IMG/VR virus record: IMGVR_UViG_3300031951_000684
Coordinates: 1-33,852 of that record
DNA: 33,852 bases
Origin: a virus
Direction: 5' to 3' (one strand)
Shown piece by piece: positions 3,762-33,415 of the stretch (positions within the stretch are counted from its first letter, which is position 1; the number at the start of each line of letters is the position of its first letter). A program made the position numbers and the translations under genes. Under the pieces are notes generated by a model. The model was given only the letters and a program-made list of their open reading frames with translations, was not told where the DNA came from and ran no database searches.

Positions 3762-5252
3762 ATGAGCACCATCATCAAGATCCTCCGCAGCCTCGTCAAA
3801 GGCAAGCGCCCCACGGGCCGCTCCGAGGGTGAGGTGTGGGTGAACGAGGCTGACAAGCAGTTCGGCTTCATTGACTCCACGGGCGCGGCGCAGGATCTGC
3901 TGGCCGTGCGGAGGTTCTCGGCCACATCCGACTACGCCATCGGCGACATCGTGATGCAGGCGGGCAAGCTCTACCGCGCGACCAAGGCCGTCACGGCAGG
4001 CGCGTTCACGGCGGCGGATTGGGATGCACTGCCTGCCAACGACAAATACCTTCCGCTGACGGGCGGGACGCTGACGGGCGCGTTGGGAATTGGGACTACG
4101 GCTCTCACTGGGTACAACCTTAACATCAATCGCAAGCTGGCGGGCGCAGCAAAAGCCGTCAGCATCAGAAATGTTTACGTCGTTGGGGCAGATGTGATCA
4201 CGAGTGCGATCTCGTATGTATCTCAACCAACGACAGAAGCAGCGGCTTACACGCTTGACAGTGCGGTGGCGTACTTGGCTGACGGCGTGGTTGTTGGTGC
4301 CGGAAGTGCGGTCACAAACCAGCGCGGATTACACGTAAACAACTTTACGGGCGCTGCAAACAATTACGCAGTATCGACAAACGTTCCCGTCGGCACAAAC
4401 AACAACTGGAACTTCTACGCTCAAGGCACCGCTCCAAACTACATGGCGGGCCCGTTGGGGATTGGGACTACGGTTGTGGCGGGGTGTAACCTACGCTTAA
4501 CGAGGCAGTTAACTGGGTCAACCACAGTAGCTAGTGTCCAAAGCGCCGCCACAGTTTCCGGTGATGTGTCCGTTTCTGCTTACGGGTTTAGCTCGTTAAT
4601 CAACACTGACGCTGCCGTTTTCACTCTTCCTGAGATCTATCACTTTGCTGCTAGGGGAGGTGCTGTAGGTGCCGGAAGCACGGTCGCGACCCAGTACGGC
4701 TTTTTTGCGGGACAGGGGTTGTCAGGCGCAGATAGCAATATAGGGTTTTTGGCGAATATCAAAGAAAAAGGGACGCAGGACTGGAACTTCTACGCTAAGA
4801 GTGCCGCTCCCAACGCCTACGCAGGCAAAAGCAGCTTCGGTGCTGTCACAGTCCCCACCGAAACCATCGACGCCACCGGCAACATTGCCGCCACGGGCTC
4901 GATGCTCTCCTCCGGCAATGCAGACGGTGTGGGCTATAAGACGGGCGCAGGCGGCACCACCACGCAGGCCACCAGCCGTACTACGGGCGTCACGTTAAAC
5001 GCGGTATGCGGGTCCATCGTGCTGGCACCCGCGGCAGGCCTCGCGACCTATCAGACCTTCACCGTCAGAAACGTCGTAGTCGCAGACACAGACGTTGTGC
5101 ATGTCTCGCAGAAGAGCGGGACTGACAAGTACATCGTCATGGTGACACGTGTCGCGGCAGGCGCGTTTGATGTGACCTTCGCCACCACGGGCGGCACTAC
5201 AACCGAGCAGCCCGAGTTCAACTTTGCCATCATGCGCGCCGTCGCGGCGTAA
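3762..5252 (+). CDS. Tail fibre protein with duplicated shaft domain
   Basis: A 496-aa protein. Residues ~1-45 resemble the GEVWVNEADKQFGFID head of phage fibres. Residues ~50-90 (YAIGDIVMQAGKLYRATKAV, then WDALP) look like a carbohydrate-binding module of the CBM5/12-like type often fused to fibres. LPLTGGTLTGALGIGTT then opens two tandem ~120-residue units, each beginning GIGTT and ending NWNFYAQGTAPNYMAG or DWNFYAKSAAPNAYAG. The C-terminal ~110 residues (GYKTGAGGTTTQATSRTTGV, then EFNFAIMRAVAA) match a common prophage fibre tip. It likely binds a host surface glycan; the exact receptor is unknown. Confidence 0.85.
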   Translation: MSTIIKILRSLVKGKRPTGRSEGEVWVNEADKQFGFIDSTGAAQDLLAVRRFSATSDYAIGDIVMQAGKLYRATKAVTAGAFTAADWDALPANDKYLPLTGGTLTGALGIGTTALTGYNLNINRKLAGAAKAVSIRNVYVVGADVITSAISYVSQPTTEAAAYTLDSAVAYLADGVVVGAGSAVTNQRGLHVNNFTGAANNYAVSTNVPVGTNNNWNFYAQGTAPNYMAGPLGIGTTVVAGCNLRLTRQLTGSTTVASVQSAATVSGDVSVSAYGFSSLINTDAAVFTLPEIYHFAARGGAVGAGSTVATQYGFFAGQGLSGADSNIGFLANIKEKGTQDWNFYAKSAAPNAYAGKSSFGAVTVPTETIDATGNIAATGSMLSSGNADGVGYKTGAGGTTTQATSRTTGVTLNAVCGSIVLAPAAGLATYQTFTVRNVVVADTDVVHVSQKSGTDKYIVMVTRVAAGAFDVTFATTGGTTTEQPEFNFAIMRAVAA

Positions 5253-17037: not shown

Positions 17038-17264
17038 ACCGCTGGATCGATCTGGACGACGCGCCGGGGATCCGGTTCCTGTGCGACACCGACCTGATGC
17101 CGCTGGTAGGGCCGCTCACAAGCGTCCCAGAGGCCGTGGACGCCTTCTGGGCTAGGTGTGTAAGGGGTGTGGAGGGCGCGAGCCTTCCACTGCCCTTGGC
17201 GGCCGTTCCAACGGCATTGCCGAGTGTGGCCCTTGAGGTGTTTGTGAAGGCCTACCGGGGCTGA
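17034..17264 (+). CDS. Small protein at end of late operon, unknown function
   Basis: A 76-aa protein, ATG overlapping the stop of paralogue B (ATGA). Sequence is acidic at the front (NRWIDLDDAPGIRFLCDTDL) and hydrophobic later (SLPLPLAAVPTALPSVALEV). No domain recognised. It is the last + gene before the convergent methyltransferase gene. A small hairpin (CTGACG at 17261-17266, CGTCAG at 17273-17278) overlaps its stop codon. Confidence 0.55.
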   Translation: MNRWIDLDDAPGIRFLCDTDLMPLVGPLTSVPEAVDAFWARCVRGVEGASLPLPLAAVPTALPSVALEVFVKAYRG

Positions 17265-17344: not shown

Positions 17345-19141
17345 TCAGGCCTGCAGCGCGGCAATTCGCCTGCCGATCCACGCCATCACCGGCACGGCCA
17401 TGCTGTTCCCCAAAGCCTTGTATCGCGGGCCATCCGGGCACTGGCTGGCGGGCTTGCCTCGGTACGGGATGGCGGTGAAGTTGTCGGGGAAGCCCTGCAG
17501 GCGCTCGCACTCCCTTACGGTAAGACGCCGGACCATCATTCCAGAGGCTACTCCCTGCGTTGCATAGGTATCGACGGCGTATGAAGTCCCATCATCGTTC
17601 CAGCCCCTGCCGTTTTGTTGTTTTTCGACCGCCCTCACATCTTGAATTGCAATCGCTGGTGGATGCGCTCCAGCGGCCAATGGGCGCGGCACCATCACGG
17701 TCGGCCCAACCGTCGGGCTTGACCCGGACGTTCCCATCGTCGCGGCCACATCCCCTGTGATCAGACCGTTGTAGCAGTCTGTGCCGATTGCCACGGCCAC
17801 CGAATGCCCGTCCGTGTCAAGCGGCCCCGTCATGTCGCCGTACTGAACCACGTCAGACTGACGAGCGTCGAAAGCGTGGGCAACCAACATCGGCCCGGCA
17901 CTGGTGTCGCTGCTGTCGGGCTGTTTGCCGTAGTTGCTGGTCATGCACGGTGCCACTGCCGGCACAAAAGCGTGGACTGGTACACGCGGCGTCCCCCGCC
18001 CCGTGCCGTCCTCGCTGGCATCAAACCCCGCACCACGGAGGCTGTGGGCCACATCCCCTGTGGGGTGCGCGACTAAAAGGCTTCCGCTGGTCACGGCGGA
18101 GTTGCCGTTCCAGCTCCTGCCGTATGACGCCAATAAGCAGTCGGCCGCCTCCTGAAAGGCCGCCGGCCCTCCTGTCTGGCTTGCTGTGTTTACCGTCTTA
18201 TCGCCGTGCAGGGTAGATGCCACGGCAACCACCGACCCTGTGGCTATATCGTTGCGAGACGTCAACGTTTTGGAAACGTCCCCCGTTTCTACTTGGTTGT
18301 AAGCATCAAAGGCAATAGGAACCCCGGCAACCTCCACGGGGATCAGGTAACCCTGATCTGCGTCCTGCCTGCCCATCGCGCCCGCGTTCAGGCATAAGCT
18401 TAGGGACGGCAAATATCCTGCCGGTGTAGGCGTCCTGTCCGTTGTGCCCCCCCCCATGTGAGCGCCATCTGTCAACGCGCCGACCGTTTGCGGGATCAAC
18501 CCGCCATCGCAGTCGAAGTCGGTTCCGAGGCCACCGCCCGCAGTGCTGCGGCTAGGGATGGTGGGAGCAGCTTTCCCCGCTTCTCGGCGCGGCGCAGGAT
18601 TCCCCGACAGGCTGTCGCGCTCAAAAAGAACCGCCGCGGCACGTCGCCAGTCTCCAGCGTGTCCGACAACGAACACACGGCGGCGGCGCTGGGCCACTCC
18701 GAAATACTGAGCGTCAAGAACTCGGTAGGCGAACCCATACCCGAGCTCGCCCAGCATCCCGAGGAAGGAGCCAAAGTCCCGTCCTCCGTTTGATGACAGA
18801 ACTCCGGGGACGTTCTCCCAAACCAGCCACTCGGGCCGTAGGCGTTCAGCAAGCGCACCGAACCCCAGCATGAGGTTGCCACGCGGGTCTGAAAGTCCTT
18901 TTCGGAGTCCTGCGACTGAGAAGGATTGGCAGGGAGTTCCTCCGACGAGAACATCGATATCTGCATAGTCGCCTCGCTGAATTGTGGTGAAGTCGCCGTG
19001 AAGCGGAACGTTCGGGTAGTGGTGAGCAAGAACCGCCCGGGGGAACGGGTCAATCTCAGAGAAGAAAGCAGGCTCCCAGCCGAGCGGGTGCCATGCTGCA
19101 GTAGCTGCCTCGATGCCAGAGCAGACGCTTCCGTATCGCAT
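17345..19141 (-). CDS. C5 DNA cytosine methyltransferase
   Basis: A 598-aa protein. ATG 19141 is chosen because TTTAGGAG lies just upstream and the protein then begins MRYGSVCSGIEAATAAW (motif I); an open frame to 19327 would add 62 residues with no support. Motif IV has the catalytic Cys71 in GGTPCQSFS, motif VI is WENVPG (~108-113), motif VIII is QRRRRVFVV (~151-159), and motif X is YKALGNSMAVPVMAWIG near the C-terminus. About 350 residues separate motif VIII from the ERLQGFP segment, far more than in compact enzymes, and contain degenerate TGDV repeats. It likely methylates phage DNA against host restriction; the target is unknown. Confidence 0.95.
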   Translation of the reverse strand: MRYGSVCSGIEAATAAWHPLGWEPAFFSEIDPFPRAVLAHHYPNVPLHGDFTTIQRGDYADIDVLVGGTPCQSFSVAGLRKGLSDPRGNLMLGFGALAERLRPEWLVWENVPGVLSSNGGRDFGSFLGMLGELGYGFAYRVLDAQYFGVAQRRRRVFVVGHAGDWRRAAAVLFERDSLSGNPAPRREAGKAAPTIPSRSTAGGGLGTDFDCDGGLIPQTVGALTDGAHMGGGTTDRTPTPAGYLPSLSLCLNAGAMGRQDADQGYLIPVEVAGVPIAFDAYNQVETGDVSKTLTSRNDIATGSVVAVASTLHGDKTVNTASQTGGPAAFQEAADCLLASYGRSWNGNSAVTSGSLLVAHPTGDVAHSLRGAGFDASEDGTGRGTPRVPVHAFVPAVAPCMTSNYGKQPDSSDTSAGPMLVAHAFDARQSDVVQYGDMTGPLDTDGHSVAVAIGTDCYNGLITGDVAATMGTSGSSPTVGPTVMVPRPLAAGAHPPAIAIQDVRAVEKQQNGRGWNDDGTSYAVDTYATQGVASGMMVRRLTVRECERLQGFPDNFTAIPYRGKPASQCPDGPRYKALGNSMAVPVMAWIGRRIAALQA

Positions 19142-19167
19142 TGCCAGTCTCCTAAACCGTGAAGGTA

Positions 19168-19383
19168 TCAGCGGGAATGCAGCTTGGCCGTGCGCTCGCG
19201 CACCGCGTCCAGTTCTGCCCAGAGCTTGCCGGTGTACGGCGTGCGCTCGGAGTGCAGCCTCAGCGCGGCGTAAATGTCCGCCATTGCCCGCTTGCAAACA
19301 TCTAGCGTGACGTTGGCCGCTCCCCACTGGGCGCGGTAGATCGGGGCGTAGCAGGCGTAGGCCTCTTCGTAGTTGCGGTGCAT
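19168..19383 (-). CDS. Small protein upstream of the methyltransferase
   Basis: A 71-aa protein, MHRNYEEAYACYAPIYRAQW and then mostly helical (CKRAMADIYAALRLHSERTP, ELDAVRERTAKLHSR). The ATG is preceded by GAGGACACCGAG, one of the repeated leader sequences of this phage. It is the first gene behind promoter 19428-19456 and lies 26 nt before the methyltransferase, so the two are probably co-transcribed. Function not recognised. It might support or regulate the methyltransferase, but only the neighbourhood suggests that. Confidence 0.75.
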   Translation of the reverse strand: MHRNYEEAYACYAPIYRAQWGAANVTLDVCKRAMADIYAALRLHSERTPYTGKLWAELDAVRERTAKLHSR

Positions 19384-19401
19384 CTCGGTGTCCTCGGTTA
19401 G

Positions 19402-19418
19402 GCCGTCAACGCGACGGC
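19402..19418 (-). other. 5' UTR hairpin, cassette A
   Basis: Minus strand: GCCGTC, loop GCGTT, GACGGC, between the promoter -10 and the GAGGACACC leader. The same position in cassettes at 32597-32614 (-) and 25652-25668 (+) holds a hairpin with a different but complementary stem. Confidence 0.7.
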
Positions 19419-19427
19419 ACGGGGAGG

Positions 19428-19456
19428 AAGATACACCCGCCCGCGAGGGAGTGCAA
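19428..19456 (-). promoter_or_regulatory. Promoter of methyltransferase operon (cassette A)
   Basis: Minus strand: TTGCAC (-35, 19456-19451), 17 nt, TATCTT (-10, 19433-19428). Transcription would start near 19421, giving a ~38-nt leader to the ATG at 19383. The same -35 with 17-nt spacing occurs at 32624-32652 (-), 22251-22279 (+) and 25615-25643 (+). Confidence 0.75.
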
Positions 19457-19464
19457 CAGGGTGC

Positions 19465-19481
19465 TAGACCATTTTGGTCTA
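19465..19481. promoter_or_regulatory. 17-nt palindrome, candidate operator A
   Basis: TAGACC-ATTTT-GGTCTA, a perfect 6-bp inverted repeat around a 5-nt centre, 8 nt upstream of the cassette A -35 box. Related imperfect copies stand at 22223-22239 and 32662-32678 at nearly the same distance from their promoters (13 of 17 positions match each). It abuts the stop codon of the 57-aa gene. Confidence 0.65.
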
Positions 19482-19655
19482 TCAGGCTGCGCTCTTATGC
19501 CGGTGTACGCACCGCACCTGAGGGCGTGGCACGGGCAGGTGGACGGCCAGCATCGATCCTGCCTTCAGGCACTCCGACTCGGAGGTGAAGCGCAGGGGCG
19601 TGGTGTTGACCATGGGCAGGCCGTTCAGGAGCGTGATGATGACGAGCTCGAACAT
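19482..19655 (-). CDS. Small phage protein (57 aa), unknown function
   Basis: Starts MFELVIITLLNGLPMVNTTP, continues LRFTSESECLKAGSML and ends RCVHRHKSAA. The layout (hydrophobic N-terminus, 'TTP.rF.s...C..AG', late 'RCV') matches short proteins common in phage accessory regions, though none has a known function. GAGGAT lies upstream with a ~7-8 nt spacing. It begins 2 nt after the stop of the 88-aa gene and ends directly against palindrome 19465-19481. The N-terminus could be a signal or short membrane segment. Confidence 0.7.
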   Translation of the reverse strand: MFELVIITLLNGLPMVNTTPLRFTSESECLKAGSMLAVHLPVPRPQVRCVHRHKSAA

Positions 19656-19657
19656 GG

Positions 19658-19924
19658 TCAGATCCTCGACCGGGCGGCGTGGACAATGGCGAGCTCTTCC
19701 ATCTCGCGCTGTTGCTTGAGGTTGGCCTGATCGACTTCTCGCTGTTGCTTCTTGAGCGCGCGCATGCCTTGCTTGAATTCGCTCTGGCGCTGCCGGAACT
19801 CGCGCTGGTGTTGCGGGTCCGCATCGTATTTCTTCTGGTTTGCCTCGACCTGTTTCCAGAATGGTGATCGAGTAGAGGCGCGGCGCTTTTCCGGGGGCGG
19901 CTTGGGAGGTTGTTTAGATTTCAT
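19658..19924 (-). CDS. Highly charged coiled-coil protein
   Basis: An 88-aa protein. The first ~25 residues are basic and Pro-rich (KSKQPPKPPPEKRRASTRSP); the rest is a Gln/Lys/Arg/Glu-rich helix (EFRQRQSEFKQGMRALKKQQ) expected to form a coiled coil. The ATG overlaps the stop of the homing endonuclease gene (TCAT on +), so translation may be coupled. Function not recognised; composition fits nucleic-acid binding or a scaffold-like role. Confidence 0.65.
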   Translation of the reverse strand: MKSKQPPKPPPEKRRASTRSPFWKQVEANQKKYDADPQHQREFRQRQSEFKQGMRALKKQQREVDQANLKQQREMEELAIVHAARSRI

Positions 19925-20742
19925 GCGTCTGCGCGACGGCGTGCCCAGTAAGTGCGGCGTGCTTCAGCCAGCTTAGCCCGCGTCTCTGGCGATATAACAC
20001 GGTTACGCAGTGCCTCGGACATCTTGGCGCGTGTCTCTGCAGAGCGGGTACGGCCGGTCTGTGCCGCAGACATCTTGGCGCGCGCCTCTGCTGACACAAC
20101 ACGACCACTGGCTGCCTCGGACAGCTTGGCCCGCGCCTCTGGCGATATACCACGGTTACGCAGTGCCTCGGATATTTTGGCCCGCGTCTCTGCAGAGTGG
20201 GCATAGCCACGCCTTCCCACAACCATGGCAGCCCGCGCCTCTGGCGATATACCACGGCTGCGGCTTGCCTCGGACAGCTTGGCCCGCGCCTCTGGCGATC
20301 TAAAACGGGCGCGTTGTGCCTCGGACATTTTGGCGCGTGTCTCGGGTGACCTGTTGCGGAGTGCCTCGGACATCTTGGCCCGCGTCTCTGCAGAGCGGGT
20401 ACGGCCGGTCTGTGCGGCAGACATCTTGGTACGCGTTTGGGGCAGCATGCCCTTGTATCGAGCGACTCCACCCCATCTACGGGCGCGGTACGCATCAAGC
20501 TTTGTGCTGGTGTGGGACATCAACAGCACGGCGTGCCAAAACCCATGCGCCTTTGCTAGCAGCAAGTGCGCCATGTAGTGGTCGCTGTAGGACAGCGTGA
20601 TCATGTTGTCAGCATCGTCTGTCCCGCCCAGTGCGCGAGGGACAACGTGGTGCCGTTCGGCGTATTCACCCGAGACGATCAGTGCCGCCTCACGGGCGCG
20701 ACGGTCTGCGATGAATTCGTTGTAGATGCGCTTGTAGTCCAT
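19921..20742 (-). CDS. HNH homing endonuclease with NUMOD3 repeat array
   Basis: A 273-aa protein from ATG 20742, chosen because AAGGAA is 6 nt upstream and relatives begin with a similar 'MxYkkIYn' motif; ATGs at 20760 and 20793 would add 6 or 17 residues. HNH: HH at 31-32 (ERHHVVPRALGGTDDADNMI), Asn46, His55 and His59 (SDHYMAHLLL). Residues ~103-270 are about ten ~17-residue NUMOD3-like repeats (RAKMSEALRNR-SPET), which in homing enzymes contact DNA. The enzyme cuts DNA lacking the insert and so spreads itself. It is free-standing, next to the hairpin-rich gap. Ten repeats is unusually many. Confidence 0.9.
   Translation of the reverse strand: MDYKRIYNEFIADRRAREAALIVSGEYAERHHVVPRALGGTDDADNMITLSYSDHYMAHLLLAKAHGFWHAVLLMSHTSTKLDAYRARRWGGVARYKGMLPQTRTKMSAAQTGRTRSAETRAKMSEALRNRSPETRAKMSEAQRARFRSPEARAKLSEASRSRGISPEARAAMVVGRRGYAHSAETRAKISEALRNRGISPEARAKLSEAASGRVVSAEARAKMSAAQTGRTRSAETRAKMSEALRNRVISPETRAKLAEARRTYWARRRADA
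19935..20440 (-). repeat. NUMOD3-coding tandem repeats
   Basis: About ten degenerate units of roughly 42-51 bp inside the endonuclease gene, recognisable on + by recurring 'GCCTCGGACATCTTGGC' and 'CGCGCCTCTGGCGATAT'. Stretches 20010-20079 and 20360-20429 are nearly identical over ~70 bp, indicating recent duplication of two units. They are coding repeats and not a CRISPR array. Confidence 0.85.
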
Positions 20743-20760: not shown

Positions 20761-21150
20761 AGCGATGCCCTTTTCCCCCTGACCTGTCCACAAGTCAGTG
20801 CAGTCTCTCGGACTGCTTACAGGTACTCAGTGTCTCCCCCGTAGACCAGCGGTCCTTCGCTGGCGACCTCCCGCAATGGGCGTCAGGGTGCCGGTTGTCA
20901 GGGCGCGACAGTGCCGGGCTTTGGTGGTCGAGCATGGGTTGGTTGCGTTGTTCACCCGGGTCAACCATACGCAATCGAATGGCCGGGGTGATCGGGGGAC
21001 TTGGCAGCTGCTGGGGGTCTGGTAGACTTCCGCCAACGGTCGCGTCGAGTTCGCGATCACAGCCTGAGGGGATTGGCGTCCCGCTCAGGTCACCGTAGGG
21101 TAGTGCAACACTGCCCTGTGGGCAAGAACCCCGGACTCACCTCCGGGGTT
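20761..21150 (+). ncRNA. Candidate structured non-coding RNA ending in a terminator
   Basis: No convincing gene occupies 20743-21246. Hairpins seen: 20800-20816 (GCAGTC/GACTGC), 20846-20863 (CCAGCG/CGCTGG), 20891-20917 (CCGG.TGTC/GACA.CCGG), interleaved GGTTG/CAACC and TTGCGT/ACGCAA in 20937-20974, 21038-21058 (GGTCGCG/CGCGATC), 21063-21089 (CCTGAGGGGA/TCCCgCTCAGG), 21097-21117 (AGGGTAGTG/CACTGCCCT) and a terminator at 21127-21150. The T-run puts the transcript on +. No + gene lies upstream for 3.5 kb, so the terminator most likely ends an RNA made here, or a leader of the early genes. The 5' end is uncertain; a weak TTGCGT-N17-CATACG lies at 20943-20971. Confidence 0.45.
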
Positions 21151-21158
21151 TTTTGTTT
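21127..21158 (+). terminator. Intrinsic terminator before early region
   Basis: Stem AACCCCGGA (21127-21135) and TCCGGGGTT (21142-21150), six-base loop CTCACC, followed by TTTTTT (21149-21154) and more T. It is a strong rho-independent terminator for + transcripts; the minus side lacks a good T-run. It stands ~90 nt before the first early + gene. Confidence 0.9.
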
Positions 21159-21191: not shown

Positions 21192-21221
21192 TTGTCACCT
21201 TGTTGCGCCATTGGGTAAGGT
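21192..21221 (+). promoter_or_regulatory. Possible early promoter
   Basis: TTGTCA (21192-21197), 18 nt, TAAGGT (21216-21221), just after the terminator and ahead of the first early gene. Matches are moderate. A perfect inverted repeat GGTGTC-GGTTT-GACACC (21219-21235) overlaps the -10 and the start region and ends at the GGAGG leader, so it could be an operator or a translation-control hairpin. Confidence 0.4.
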
Positions 21222-21246: not shown

Positions 21247-21474
21247 ATGGACAAGCAAGTACTGATTCACCGGCTGTGCAGCCGACCCGGGAAGACTGGG
21301 CGCGTAAGTGCCAAGTGTGTGGAGTGTATCTACGACGAGCGAGCTGCGGGATACGGAACGTGGCGCCAGCAGACGGAGGCCTGCACGGCGACCGCGTGCC
21401 CCCTGTGGCCCATCCGACCCCTGAGCGAGGGCGCGAAGGACGAGGACGAGCTGTGCGACTCGCTTACCGACTAG
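21247..21474 (+). CDS. Small Cys-rich early phage protein
   Basis: A 75-aa protein with GGAGG at 21236-21240. It has a CVECIYD motif (CxxC) followed by YGTWRQQTEACTATACPLWP and RPLSEG. This Cys spacing and the 'GTWRqQ.eaCt...CpLw..RP' phrase match a zinc-binding small protein common in early regions of phages. Function unknown; perhaps a Zn-dependent DNA- or protein-binding factor. It overlaps the next reading frame by 22 nt. Confidence 0.75.
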   Translation: MDKQVLIHRLCSRPGKTGRVSAKCVECIYDERAAGYGTWRQQTEACTATACPLWPIRPLSEGAKDEDELCDSLTD

Positions 21475-22250: not shown

Positions 22251-22279
22251 TTGCACATTCCTGCGCCAAGGGGTAGGAT
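22251..22279 (+). promoter_or_regulatory. Early promoter (cassette B)
   Basis: TTGCAC (22251-22256), 17 nt, TAGGAT (22274-22279). The start would be near 22286, ~43 nt before the next ATG. The preceding CACCCTG and the -35 are shared with cassette A. A weaker hairpin (GGTTGGG/CCC.GACC) lies in the leader. Confidence 0.7.
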
Positions 22280-30879: not shown

Positions 30880-31082
30880 GACAGGAGATCCCACTTCACC
30901 CGCTCGGTGTCGAGGATGAAGGCGAAGCGGTCGATGGAGGTGCTCATGGTCTCCTTGAACACCACCGGGCCGAGGGTGCCTGACCACGCCTCGACATGCT
31001 CGCGCATGAAGGCGTCCCCTCGCGGGGAGATTGACTCGGCACTCCAGAAACCCGTGCTCTCACGGCGCAGCAACATATCCAT
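30876..31082 (-). CDS. Small protein of minus cluster, unknown function
   Basis: A 68-aa protein, last in the minus-strand operon. ATG 31082 has GGAG ~8 nt upstream. MDMLLRRESTGFWSAESISP, HVEAWSGTLGPVVFKETMST, SIDRFAFILDTERVKWDLLS. No domain recognised. It ends tail-to-tail with the large terminase gene with overlapping stops, so there is no room for a terminator between them. Confidence 0.6.
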   Translation of the reverse strand: MDMLLRRESTGFWSAESISPRGDAFMREHVEAWSGTLGPVVFKETMSTSIDRFAFILDTERVKWDLLS

Positions 31083-31087
31083 GGCAA

Positions 31088-31270
31088 TTACTCCGTAACG
31101 GTCTTGGGGATTCGCAGGGCTTCACCGGCGGGCACGCCGCGCTCGCGAAGGCCCTCCGACACCAGTGCGATGACAACGTCTGCCACAGAGCGCGAGTGCT
31201 CGATGCCGAGCTTCTCTAGGGCGAACTTCATCTCGGTGGAGACGCGGAAAGTGATCTGGCTGTTACGCAT
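31088..31270 (-). CDS. Ribbon-helix-helix-like regulator
   Basis: A 60-aa protein. ATG 31270 is chosen because GAGGAG is upstream and MRNSQITFRVSTEMKFALEK is then the canonical RHH strand followed by helices (SVADVVIALVSEGLRERG). RHH proteins of this size are dimeric DNA-binding repressors. It might control the minus operon or bind one of the 17-nt palindromes near the promoters; no binding evidence exists. It overlaps the 121-aa gene by 8 nt. Confidence 0.75.
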   Translation of the reverse strand: MRNSQITFRVSTEMKFALEKLGIEHSRSVADVVIALVSEGLRERGVPAGEALRIPKTVTE

Positions 31271-31628
31271 GGCAAGGCTCCTCGACGGTGGTGGTGAGAT
31301 CATCAACGCAGCGCAGGACGGCGTAGCACGCGGCCCAGAGCTCAAAAAGCGGCGAGATATGGTGTCTGCCCTTCAACACGCGCTCGGCCATCTCGAACAG
31401 GGCGCGCGAGTCACGCTGCAAGGTGCGGACAGTCGAGGCGTTGATCGCATCGGAGCGGTCGTGCCAGAAGGTGCTTGCGCTCTGCATATCATGGATCAGG
31501 CGCTCTGCCAGATGCTGCATGGCAGCAGCCTCCGCAGGGTAGCCAAGGGCGATCCAGCGATGCTTGAGCAGCGTGGTGGCGCGCTTTGCGTAGGCCGCGC
31601 CTTCCAGCAGGTGGAGTTGGGTGTTCAT
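31263..31628 (-). CDS. Helical protein of minus cluster, unknown function
   Basis: A 121-aa protein, almost entirely helices: TQLHLLEGAAYAKRATTLLK, AAAMQHLAERLIHDMQSAST, SRALFEMAERVLKGRHHISP. The ATG is preceded by GAGGACACAGAGC, one of the repeated leaders, lying within the end of the 38-aa gene. ATGA overlap with that gene implies coupled translation. Its function is not recognised. Confidence 0.65.
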   Translation of the reverse strand: MNTQLHLLEGAAYAKRATTLLKHRWIALGYPAEAAAMQHLAERLIHDMQSASTFWHDRSDAINASTVRTLQRDSRALFEMAERVLKGRHHISPLFELWAACYAVLRCVDDLTTTVEEPCHA

Positions 31629-31741
31629 GCTCTGTGTCCTCTGTGCTTCGAGTAGCCACGGGATGCGGCTCTCTTACGGTCTACGTGAGTGGCTGCCCGA
31701 TTGACGCGGGCGAATTTGGCTACGGGGTTTCGGGTCTTCAT
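31625..31741 (-). CDS. Short basic protein (38 aa)
   Basis: MKTRNPVAKFARVNRAATHV then DRKRAASRGYSKHRGHRA. The 'MktRNPvAK.ar..nra..h.DrK' beginning matches very short basic proteins common in phages. GAGGACACC precedes the ATG directly. Its stop overlaps the start of the 121-aa gene. The charge suggests nucleic-acid binding, but no activity is known. Confidence 0.75.
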   Translation of the reverse strand: MKTRNPVAKFARVNRAATHVDRKRAASRGYSKHRGHRA

Positions 31742-31752
31742 GGTGTCCTCTG

Positions 31753-32130
31753 TTACGCGAAGCTGATGATTGCGCCGCCGATCTTCCGGCCTTCATGGCG
31801 GCCCTTGTGGCAGTGAAACATGCGGCGGTACTCGATGCGGCCATCCCCCAGAATGCGCATGTAGTGCTCATCGATCCGGGCGCGGCGGAAGGTGGCAAGG
31901 ATCTCGCGCTCTGCCTGATCGAAAGAGCTCACCTCGAAGGCGCGCTCTTCGTTGCCGGACTGGCGCATGATGGTGACAATCAGTTTCCGCTTCCCTTTGC
32001 AGCGTTTGATGGCCTCCTCCCGCGTGGCTGGGGTGGCGTCTCTCATGTCCTGTGCGTAGCAATGCACGATGACGTACCCAACGAGGTAAACGACCGTGCT
32101 GATCAGTACAAAGATTCCTTCTGCGTTCAT
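31753..32130 (-). CDS. Membrane-anchored protein of minus cluster
   Basis: A 125-aa protein. The N-terminus (MNAEGIFVLISTVVYLVGYV then IVHCYA) is one membrane helix, followed by a cytoplasmic-type basic domain (RCKGKRKLIVTIMRQSGNEE, FDQAEREILATFRRARIDEH). The ATG follows GAGGACACTGAC, and the stem-loop 32160-32195 lies between it and the upstream gene. It could be an exclusion or membrane-docked regulator; nothing specific is recognised. Confidence 0.65.
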   Translation of the reverse strand: MNAEGIFVLISTVVYLVGYVIVHCYAQDMRDATPATREEAIKRCKGKRKLIVTIMRQSGNEERAFEVSSFDQAEREILATFRRARIDEHYMRILGDGRIEYRRMFHCHKGRHEGRKIGGAIISFA

Positions 32131-32159
32131 GTCAGTGTCCTCAGGTTGTGGGGAGACAT

Positions 32160-32195
32160 TCCCGTGCTGCGCCCCGCGAGGCGCAGACCGTGAAT
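32160..32195 (-). repeat. 3' stem-loop element, copy 2
   Basis: Minus strand: ATTCACGGT, stem CTGCGCC, loop TCGCGG, stem GGCGCAG, CACGGGA. It begins at the stop codon of the 126-aa gene and is followed by TCTCCCCACAACC and the GAGGACACTGAC leader of the next gene. Compare 17306-17341 (-) and 25937-25973 (+): flanks conserved, stems changed but paired. Confidence 0.8.
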
Positions 32196-32575
32196 TACTC
32201 TGCGAAGCGATCCATCAGTGCGCGCTCGGCCTCGATGCCGCTGCGCTGATAAGCCACCGAGGCGTAGGCCGGATCGATCTCATCCCAATGCGCCAGATTG
32301 ATCTCGCCAGCTGCACGCACCCGCTCGGCCAGCTTCTCGGCAGCGGCCTCGCCTGCGCCCTCCCAATCGCGCTCGACGTAAGCACCGAACTCGGCGTCGA
32401 CGTCGCGCACAACGGCGGCGTTGTTCCAGCGGCGCACGTGAGCCCAGCGGCGACCGTCTGCGGCGGTGGCGATAACGAAGTAAGACTCGCCGATCACCGG
32501 GGTGCCGTCTTCCGGGTGGCGACCTGCGGAGTACTGGTCGAAGGTGACTTCGATCTCAAGGTCGGCTGCGTTCAT
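32195..32575 (-). CDS. First protein of minus cluster, unknown function
   Basis: A 126-aa acidic protein starting at ATG 32575 after GAGGACACCGAC. LEIEVTFDQYSAGRHPEDGT, YFVIATAADGRRWAHVRRWN, then helices (GEAAAEKLAERVRAAGEINL). It appears to be a small alpha/beta domain that occurs alone. It is the first gene behind promoter 32624 and is closed by the stem-loop at 32160. No family could be named. Confidence 0.7.
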   Translation of the reverse strand: MNAADLEIEVTFDQYSAGRHPEDGTPVIGESYFVIATAADGRRWAHVRRWNNAAVVRDVDAEFGAYVERDWEGAGEAAAEKLAERVRAAGEINLAHWDEIDPAYASVAYQRSGIEAERALMDRFAE

Positions 32576-32596
32576 GTCGGTGTCCTCTCGGTTGCG

Positions 32597-32614
32597 GCCA
32601 GCAAGTGCGCTGGC
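32597..32614 (-). other. 5' UTR hairpin, cassette C
   Basis: Minus strand: GCCAGC, loop GCACTT, GCTGGC. Same position as in cassettes A and D; the stem differs from A (GCCGTC/GACGGC) by compensating changes. Confidence 0.7.
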
Positions 32615-32623
32615 ACAGGGAGA

Positions 32624-32652
32624 AAGATACATGGTAGCGCATAGAGGTGCAA
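32624..32652 (-). promoter_or_regulatory. Promoter of minus cluster (cassette C)
   Basis: Minus strand: TTGCAC (32652-32647), 17 nt, TATCTT (32629-32624). Both boxes and the spacing equal cassette A. Start near 32617 gives a ~42-nt leader. It faces away from the + promoter at 32690. Confidence 0.75.
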
Positions 32653-32661
32653 GGCATTGCT

Positions 32662-32678
32662 TAGACCGTGTTGGCATA
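32662..32678. promoter_or_regulatory. 17-nt palindrome-like element, candidate operator C
   Basis: Minus reading TATGCCAACACGGTCTA, 9 nt upstream of the cassette C -35. It agrees at 13 of 17 positions with the perfect palindrome at 19465-19481, including GGTCTA. It lies between two divergent promoters, so one bound protein could affect both. Confidence 0.55.
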
Positions 32679-32689
32679 AGGGATGGGCG

Positions 32690-32718
32690 TTGACGGTTGC
32701 AAATGGCATAGCTACCAT
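32690..32718 (+). promoter_or_regulatory. Possible promoter of capsid operon
   Basis: TTGACG (32690-32695), 17 nt, TACCAT (32713-32718). The start would be near 32725, ~140 nt before the protease GTG. It is oriented away from the cassette C promoter, and the two -35 boxes are ~38 nt apart. Confidence 0.5.
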
Positions 32719-32750
32719 TCGCCAAACCTTTGCCTGTCTCGGGAGCTCCG

Positions 32751-32888
32751 GTGACGCAGTCAAACCGCCCGGGACGCGAGGAGAGAGAGGCATATCGTAA
32801 ATCCGGGCAGGCGCAATCGCCTGCCAACGGTGGAAAGCAAACCCCAGCGGGAGCTCCACCATCGTGCAAACCGGGTCACGCGAAGTAA
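32751..32888 (+). CDS. Possible 45-aa protein before the protease
   Basis: From GTG 32751, with GGGAG ~5 nt upstream. MTQSNRPGREEREAYRKSGQ then a Pro/Gly/Ala-rich tail; low complexity and no homology seen. It overlaps the start of the protease gene by 25 nt. The leader could support translation, but the composition suggests it may be just an open frame. Low confidence. Confidence 0.25.
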   Translation: MTQSNRPGREEREAYRKSGQAQSPANGGKQTPAGAPPSCKPGHAK

Positions 32889-33415
32889 CCAAGCACCTGT
32901 CCGCGACGGTCGAGAAGAGCGACGGCGACTTCGACGCCCGTTTTGTTCTCTCGGCAGCAACGCCGGACCGCGTGAGGGACACCATCGAGCCCTCGGCCTA
33001 CACCGCCGCCTTGCGCATGGACAAGCTCATCGCGCTGATGAACCATGACCCGGACAAGATCATCGGGTACTGGACCAACCTAGAAACCAAAGCAGACACC
33101 CTTCGTGGCCACCTCAAGCTGGCCAGCACGCGCCTTGGCGACATGCTGCGCGAGTTGCTGGTGTCAGGCGTGCCCCTCGGGGCTTCCATCGGATTCAGAG
33201 GCAAGGGCGAGCCCAACAAGGCGGGCGGCGTCCACTTCAAGGAAATCGAGTTGCTTGAGTGCAGTCTGGTCGCGACGCCTGCCCATCCCCGGGCTATGCA
33301 GATCGCCAAGCACTTCGGCATCGATCTGGGCGTCGAGTCAGACCCCACCCCGGCAGACACTCTCCAACGCGCCAAGCGGGCAATCCTGTCCGCACAACGC
33401 ACCATACGGAACTGA
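32864..33415 (+). CDS. HK97-family prohead protease
   Basis: A 183-aa protein from GTG 32864. His61 in LMNHDPDKIIGYW and Ser108 in PLGASIGFRGKG are the catalytic His and Ser of the family. EIELLECSLVATPAHPRAMQ is the standard closing strand. It cleaves the scaffold-like part of the capsid protein during maturation and then itself. A GGAG at 32850-32853 is ~11 nt from the GTG. It stands directly before the capsid gene, but the portal gene is not between it and the large terminase. Confidence 0.9.
   Translation: MQTGSREVTKHLSATVEKSDGDFDARFVLSAATPDRVRDTIEPSAYTAALRMDKLIALMNHDPDKIIGYWTNLETKADTLRGHLKLASTRLGDMLRELLVSGVPLGASIGFRGKGEPNKAGGVHFKEIELLECSLVATPAHPRAMQIAKHFGIDLGVESDPTPADTLQRAKRAILSAQRTIRN

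Follow-up and report, generated by a model that had tools for sequence, protein, structure and literature searches.

The window, the whole of a virus record analysed at its full length of 33,852 bases, has a GC content of 63% and contains a 398-nt gap, 20761-21158, that forms the boundary between a leftward and a rightward block of genes. Family searches place tail and head-tail genes in the left half of the contig and identify the genes on either side of the gap as listed here; a search for a simple end repeat found no second copy of the first 10 bases of the contig within it.

17345-20742, minus strand: C5 methylase and HNH/NUMOD3 endonuclease (family searches)
19921-20742, minus strand: HNH/NUMOD3 homing-endonuclease-like gene (NUMOD3 2.5e-24, HNH 9.8e-5; phrog_655 homing endonuclease 1.1e-39)
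21247-21474, plus strand: first gene of the rightward early block, 75 aa, cysteine-rich
right of the gap, plus strand: rightward block with ERF, RecE-like exonuclease, NinB-like protein, HNH protein and terminase subunits (family searches)

The HNH endonuclease that the first-pass annotation had seen on the other strand is indeed there, recognisable by its NUMOD3/HNH domains; it shows no sign of belonging to the RNA predicted below and serves as context only. The same annotation had counted 3.5 kb upstream without a plus-strand gene, and on our reading of the frames some 3.8 kb contain minus-strand genes only, the last plus-strand frame that we read as a gene ending at 17264. The 75-aa gene has partial matches, with stretches 41-53% identical, in 16 Pseudomonas and Vibrio phage records, which hints at a gammaproteobacterial host; the large terminase is 47% identical to the terminase of HK97 and its relatives. 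GC content at third codon positions, 0.55-0.72 in five ORFs of the gap, 0.65-0.95 in seven plus-strand neighbours and 0.57-0.71 in three minus-strand neighbours, does not settle whether the gap is coding.

Two peculiarities of the gene map lie away from the gap. The C5 methylase (17345-19327, minus strand) matches its family in two blocks, at about residues 62-267 and 527-656, and appears in two pieces in most tblastn rows as well; an insertion of some 260 residues seems to separate the blocks, and an intein or a mobile gene is possible. Positions 30880-32863, which lead from the large terminase to a head-protease-like ORF (32864-33415), hold short frames only and no plus-strand ORF of portal size; a broken gene, an assembly error or a portal encoded elsewhere, for example by the 496-aa frame at 3762-5252 to which the family search assigned nothing, are all possible.

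Folding of the gap

The gap had been described as filled along its ~400 nt by hairpins and an interleaved pair that together could form a non-coding RNA ending in a terminator. Compared with shuffled sequences, the excess folding of the full 398 nt is small, with z -2.34 on the plus strand (3 of 100 shuffles as good) and -2.84 on the minus strand (1 of 100); the left part, 20761-21028, is at chance on the plus strand (z +0.36, 122 of 200 shuffles as good) and near chance on the minus strand (z -1.33, 19 of 200). A structure spanning the whole gap was rejected for this left part: hairpins can be drawn in it, as can the interleaved pair at 20937-20974, but taken as a whole it folds no better than expected from its composition. 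The proposed RNA is supported for 21035-21156, to which a suitably placed promoter match can be added, and is not supported for the 270 nt to the left. The elements in and beyond the right part of the gap are as follows, the promoter P1 being identified by its match to consensus.

21001-21028, plus strand: promoter P1, TTGGCA, 16 nt, TAGACT, with TGn before the second hexamer (extended -10)
21035-21156, plus strand: predicted RNA of about 122 nt, starting at an A at 21035/21036, 7-8 nt past the -10, and ending at about 21156
21038-21058, plus strand: hairpin 1, 7 pairs, 7-nt loop UCGAGUU (alone z -2.5, 19 of 1000 shuffles)
21062-21090, plus strand: hairpin 2, 12 pairs, one bulged G, 4-nt loop (alone z -3.8, 1 of 1000)
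21093-21121, plus strand: hairpin 3, 13 pairs including three G.U (by eye), 3-nt loop CAA (alone z -4.0, 0 of 1000)
21122-21155, plus strand: intrinsic terminator hairpin, core 21124-21153, with a run of T (alone z -5.1, 0 of 1000)
21192-21221, plus strand: promoter-like P2, TTGTCA, 18 nt, TAAGGT (weak -10), between the terminator and the first plus-strand gene
22251-22279, plus strand: promoter-like P3, TTGCAC, 17 nt, TAGGAT, in a later gap between plus-strand genes

On the plus strand, 21035-21156 folds at -68.3 kcal/mol with z -6.19, a value reached by none of 200 shuffles (z -6.34 and none of 1000 with more shuffles), against -51.5 kcal/mol and z -2.98 on the minus strand (0 of 200). Hairpins 1-3 taken without the terminator reach z -5.64 on the plus strand, again beyond all of 1000 shuffles, and -2.4 on the minus strand of the same piece. 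Because 8 of the 46 pairs of the fold are G.U, which leaves them unpaired on the other strand, the fold suits an RNA read from the plus strand better than an inverted repeat in DNA. Four hairpins had been claimed for 21038-21150 at spacings of 4-9 nt; all four are present, at 21038-21155, and they stand closer together than that, with spacers of 3, 2 and 0 nt in the minimum-energy fold. Hairpin 1 begins 2-3 nt past the expected start, and the bases with a pairing probability below 0.1 are the first three, the four loops, the short spacers and one bulge, a distribution that disfavours a long seed for pairing with an mRNA and favours a role of the fold or of the loops. When the RNA is folded only up to the terminator loop, the minimum-energy fold retains the same three hairpins and leaves the 5' arm of the terminator free, so that no attenuation switch is predicted.

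In a GC-corrected scan of 122-nt plus-strand windows over the whole contig, the four best all belong to the neighbourhood of 21035-21156, the fifth (17131-17252) following close behind at -3.9 vs -4.3. The next most stable GC-corrected folds of this length include 17101-17262 on the plus strand, where the rightward structural genes end, and 28141-28262 on the minus strand. Among 163 terminator-ended 122-nt windows from 81 sequences (40 shuffles each), 21035-21156 ranks fourth by z, and the three windows above it come from the related contigs L022 and L027. A second array of neighbouring hairpins closed by a terminator is found in these two (L022:10144-10265, z -8.2; L027:8102-8223, z -5.4); it may be one more phage RNA or a 3' end.

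A pairing of the RNA with the start of the next gene, suggested by a repeat search, was rejected: its complementarity to the ribosome-binding site of that gene (-40.3 kcal/mol) is matched in 176 of 500 shuffles of the target and in 182 of 500 shuffles of the RNA, which is the chance level. In raw energy, stronger duplexes were obtained with other gene starts, the best reaching -54.2 (gene at 28147).

Promoter and terminator matches

P1 matches the sigma70 consensus at 9 of 12 positions and ends 9 nt before hairpin 1. Sigma70-like matches as a class are not enriched in the contig (6 on both strands vs 6.4 expected in shuffles); P1 is the only one of the six with an extended -10, a feature that turned up in two of ten shuffled contigs, once in each. 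The strong plus-strand terminator noted in the first pass is borne out by the hairpin at 21124-21153 with its TTTTTTGTTT tail; its 12 pairs are the most among the 22 terminator-like matches of the contig, of which the next best has 9, and as a group these matches are not clearly above shuffles (17 vs 12.5, sd 3.7; 5 vs 6.4). P1 and the longest terminator-like hairpin thus stand at the two ends of the 21035-21156 fold, and two marks of an intrinsically terminated small-RNA gene, its own promoter and a Rho-independent terminator, are found here as sequence matches.

The core of the terminator, CCCGGACTNACCTCCGGG, occurs in 15 viral contig stretches (L100-L114), 12 of them distinct by eye, in a search that fixed those letters and so says nothing on the conservation of the loop in general. 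A run of T follows in 11 of the 15, and 13 carry ACTAACC where the contig has ACTCACC; by its sequence, CCCGGACTNACCTCCGGG is a recurrent terminator-like hairpin. The terminator loop, UCACCUCC, resembles the 3' end of 16S rRNA, and an anti-Shine-Dalgarno role for it was rejected as nothing special to this locus, given that CCCGGACTNACCTCCGGG recurs in those 15 stretches.

P2 and P3 are both poor matches to the sigma70 consensus, and the -10 of P2 agrees at 3 of 6 positions (by eye). The gaps that hold them align with 27 points against a shuffle mean of 15.9, a score reached by 7 of 1000 shuffles, in one of three gap pairs compared, the other two being at chance. A motif drawn from P2 and P3 themselves has these two as its only exact matches in the contig, and looser matches with up to 3 mismatches occur at the chance rate (4 vs 5.0). 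This weakly suggests that the downstream genes may have start elements of their own.

Two repeats near the unit may be recorded alongside. Upstream of P1, at 20950-20965, lies a near-perfect 16-bp palindrome, GTTCACCCGGGTCAAC, operator-like in appearance, whose 14-base core pattern has no second exact match in the contig. The motif CGATCACC is present in 15 copies in the contig against 1.9 expected (0 of 100 shuffles had as many), two of which, at 20987 and 21176, flank the RNA unit; this excess may be a matter of codon usage.

Relatives and known systems

Searches for relatives used the covariance model R1, built from one sequence given twice with the second copy one base shorter, which finds near relatives only; in 187 loci or 299 genomes it found none for 21035-21156. 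ERF loci, of which the best 80 of 220 relatives were searched together with the contig, gave no relative, nor did 12 further loci (best 11.7 bits). Ten further records or genomes gave one match, confined to model positions 91-125, that is to the terminator, behind a 297-aa ORF; 15 loci gave at best 19.0 bits, in the terminator part; and 80 of 85 stretches with the pattern of hairpin 2 gave at best 20.4 bits, with hairpins 1-2 partly aligned and no terminator hairpin. Under stricter filters, the 299 genomes, all of one phylum, returned 4 matches at E<=0.01 where about 3 are expected if the rough E-values hold, with the terminator well aligned and the rest in part. As no relative carrying the element was found, no covariation supports the fold, which is the chief weak point of the case. 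A blastn search against phages returned nothing beyond 13 records with short matches at E 2-6, seen when E up to 10 was allowed and taken as chance; a nucleotide search against plasmids found no homologue, and two stem patterns run over viral contigs gave nothing. Searches found no relatives of the 200-aa and 75-aa neighbours in viral contigs, nor of the former in phages, and the terminase search in viral contigs returned only L082, 11.5 kb long and 100% identical, which by its offset starts near 22830 and misses the gap.

No match in the contig reaches the gathering score of Rfam 15. The best weak one, AgrB, scores 18.3 bits (E 1.6) where the gathering score is 40, and the six matches up to E 10 include no riboswitch family. 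HEARO RNAs are structured RNAs that lie beside an HNH gene and accompany IscB; the likeness here is a structured RNA beside an HNH gene, and the difference is that this gene is of the NUMOD3/homing type and that Rfam gives no match. HEARO had been set aside from the start, rightly as far as these searches go, since no Rfam family passes threshold and none of the weak matches (E<=10) is HEARO, itself a family present in Rfam. At lambda pR', a short transcript is made ahead of tR', before the late genes. The order of promoter, short RNA, terminator and genes is the same here, but no Q gene was recognised among the scanned proteins, and the lambda unit precedes late genes.

HK022 is a closer comparison. 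Its put RNAs, as described in PMC9378689, are about 70 nt long, consist of two adjacent stem-loops with bulges and non-canonical pairs, and let the polymerase read on through terminators, putL lying just downstream of its promoter. A put RNA suppresses termination by attaching to the zinc-binding domain of the polymerase. The predicted RNA resembles putL and putR in having adjacent stem-loops near the presumed start of an early transcript, ahead of a terminator (PMC9378689), and the contig resembles HK97 relatives by its terminase match of 47%; it differs in its three nearly perfect stems followed by a terminator and in lacking sequence similarity to putL. With the positions of putL and putR in the HK022 record taken from their mutual similarity, as the record carries no annotation of them, putL aligns to the predicted RNA with a score of 18 (shuffle mean 17.3, 200 of 500 as good) and putR with a raw score of 16, whereas the two put RNAs score 48 with each other. 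By sequence, then, the predicted RNA is not a put RNA; it could still work like one, and RNA-based antitermination by it is possible.

Small RNAs without established function are described for virulent phages in PMC4933390, namely sRNA1 and sRNA2 of PAK_P3 and the band C and D RNAs of T4. The PAK_P3 pair, about 100 nt each, lies in intergenic gaps, is late and was detected by RNA-seq; the element at 21035-21156 can be set beside them as small and intergenic, and it differs in being predicted only and in standing in front of an early block. Regulatory RNAs of phages and prophages such as DicF, AsxR, IsrK, SprY and the c4 RNA of P1/P7 are covered in the review PMC12197685, several of them acting through base pairing with other RNAs; the present RNA, with few free bases and no Rfam family, is unlike that kind.

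A comparison closer to home comes from contigs sharing the ERF gene. Counting the loci L003-L081 and the contig, the sequence upstream of ERF exceeds 2.5 kb in 62 of 80. By the criteria of our script (terminator-ended window with z < -5, no ORF of at least 90 aa, at most 6 kb ahead of ERF and on the same strand as ERF), such a stretch occurs in just one further locus, L009. Located at L009:7877-8010 (z -6.1, or -4.2 when a longer piece is folded), it precedes ERF by 2.0 kb, against 2.1 kb in the contig, and is flanked by a leftward 455-aa ORF on one side and the first rightward ORF on the other. The first early ATG stands there 9 nt past the run of T of an apparent terminator, the fold differs from that of 21035-21156, and the best Rfam match has E 1.4; a pattern scan of that gap listed neither a plus-strand promoter nor that terminator. 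The L009 stretch looks like a read-through leader and, by analogy, is the best argument for a leader role of 21035-21156. In L007, a terminator behind a 74-aa plus-strand ORF looks ordinary, and L008 has the same sequence there.

Readings of the unit

Since the fold favours one strand, P1 stands at its head and the longest terminator-like hairpin at its close, a terminated plus-strand RNA of about 122 nt is very likely, and we regard the transcription unit at 21001-21156 as most probably real. What such a unit would do is less clear-cut. The first pass had left the choice between an RNA gene and a controlled leader of the early region, and we lean to the former: with a probability of roughly one half, the product would be a stand-alone, early and compact RNA acting in trans, transcription, timing and mode of action all being predictions. 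Host RNA polymerase with its main sigma factor would start at P1; the RNA would fold during synthesis into three tight hairpins and stop at the intrinsic terminator, giving a compact and stable molecule with almost no single-stranded stretch. Acting in trans early in infection, it could bind or decoy a host protein, or pair loop to loop, through its fold or its loops and not through a long mRNA seed, while the early genes downstream would start from their own element P2. Against this stand the weakness of P2, which leaves room for P1 as the actual early promoter and for the unit as a leader; the leader-like stretch of L009, whose apparent terminator precedes the first early start codon by 9 nt; and promoter- and terminator-like matches that, taken as a whole, are not clearly commoner than in shuffles.

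The main competing explanation, possible though on balance doubtful, is that the unit is a cis-acting leader of the early operon: P1 would be the main early promoter, the hairpins would promote read-through of the terminator into the genes from 21247 by loading onto RNA polymerase or by binding a factor that does, as in HK022 put or the lambda N/Q leaders, and the short RNA would be a terminated by-product. No promoter match in the contig is better than P1, which is directed towards the early genes; read-through seems needed in L009 given the position of its apparent terminator; and the hairpins begin at about +3, much as putL begins just downstream of its promoter (PMC9378689). Such a leader is harder to reconcile with the dissimilarity to HK022 putL, with stems that nearly lack the bulges and non-canonical pairs of put, and with the fact that no N- or Q-like gene was recognised among the scanned proteins, which came from a part of the ORFs and in many cases gave no match. 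P2/P3 may moreover provide a separate start, the L009 gap scan lists neither promoter nor terminator, and the terminator stretch shared by L007 and L008 follows a plus-strand ORF in L007.

Three further explanations carry little weight. Operators and origins are common between divergent gene blocks, and the gap lies between two such blocks, so that a DNA-level element (operators, a replication start or a recombination site) whose inverted repeats merely happen to be foldable as RNA might be considered; the near-palindrome at 20950-20965, the over-represented CGATCACC and a minus strand of 21035-21156 that also beats its shuffles agree with it, but the G.U pairs and the large strand difference favour RNA, and only one of the strands has a run of T behind the last hairpin, which makes it very unlikely. 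An attenuator or riboswitch-like leader, in which an alternative pairing opens the terminator upon a signal, is a shade less likely still: the terminator does precede a gene on the same strand, but the minimum-energy fold up to the terminator loop offers no competing antiterminator, none of the six Rfam matches with E up to 10 is to a riboswitch family, and pairing with the ribosome-binding site of the next gene is at chance on target shuffles. Least probable of all is chance, a terminator beside accidental hairpins in GC-rich non-coding DNA; no relative showing conservation was found and the left part of the gap folds no better than shuffles do on the plus strand, but hairpins 1-3 without the terminator beat all 1000 shuffles and coincide with promoter and terminator matches.

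The predicted RNA joins the loose kind of phage-encoded small structured RNAs. It is unlikely, though worth stating, that it represents a new kind of phage RNA acting by its fold alone, either as a protein-free antiterminator unrelated to put or as an early decoy of a host protein or defence; other phages, for example the one in L009, would then carry at this position a structured RNA that differs in sequence. A unit of 122 nt with clear predicted ends is easily tested for expression, antitermination and protein partners, and if it proved a true RNA-only antiterminator, it would represent a further phage design besides put.
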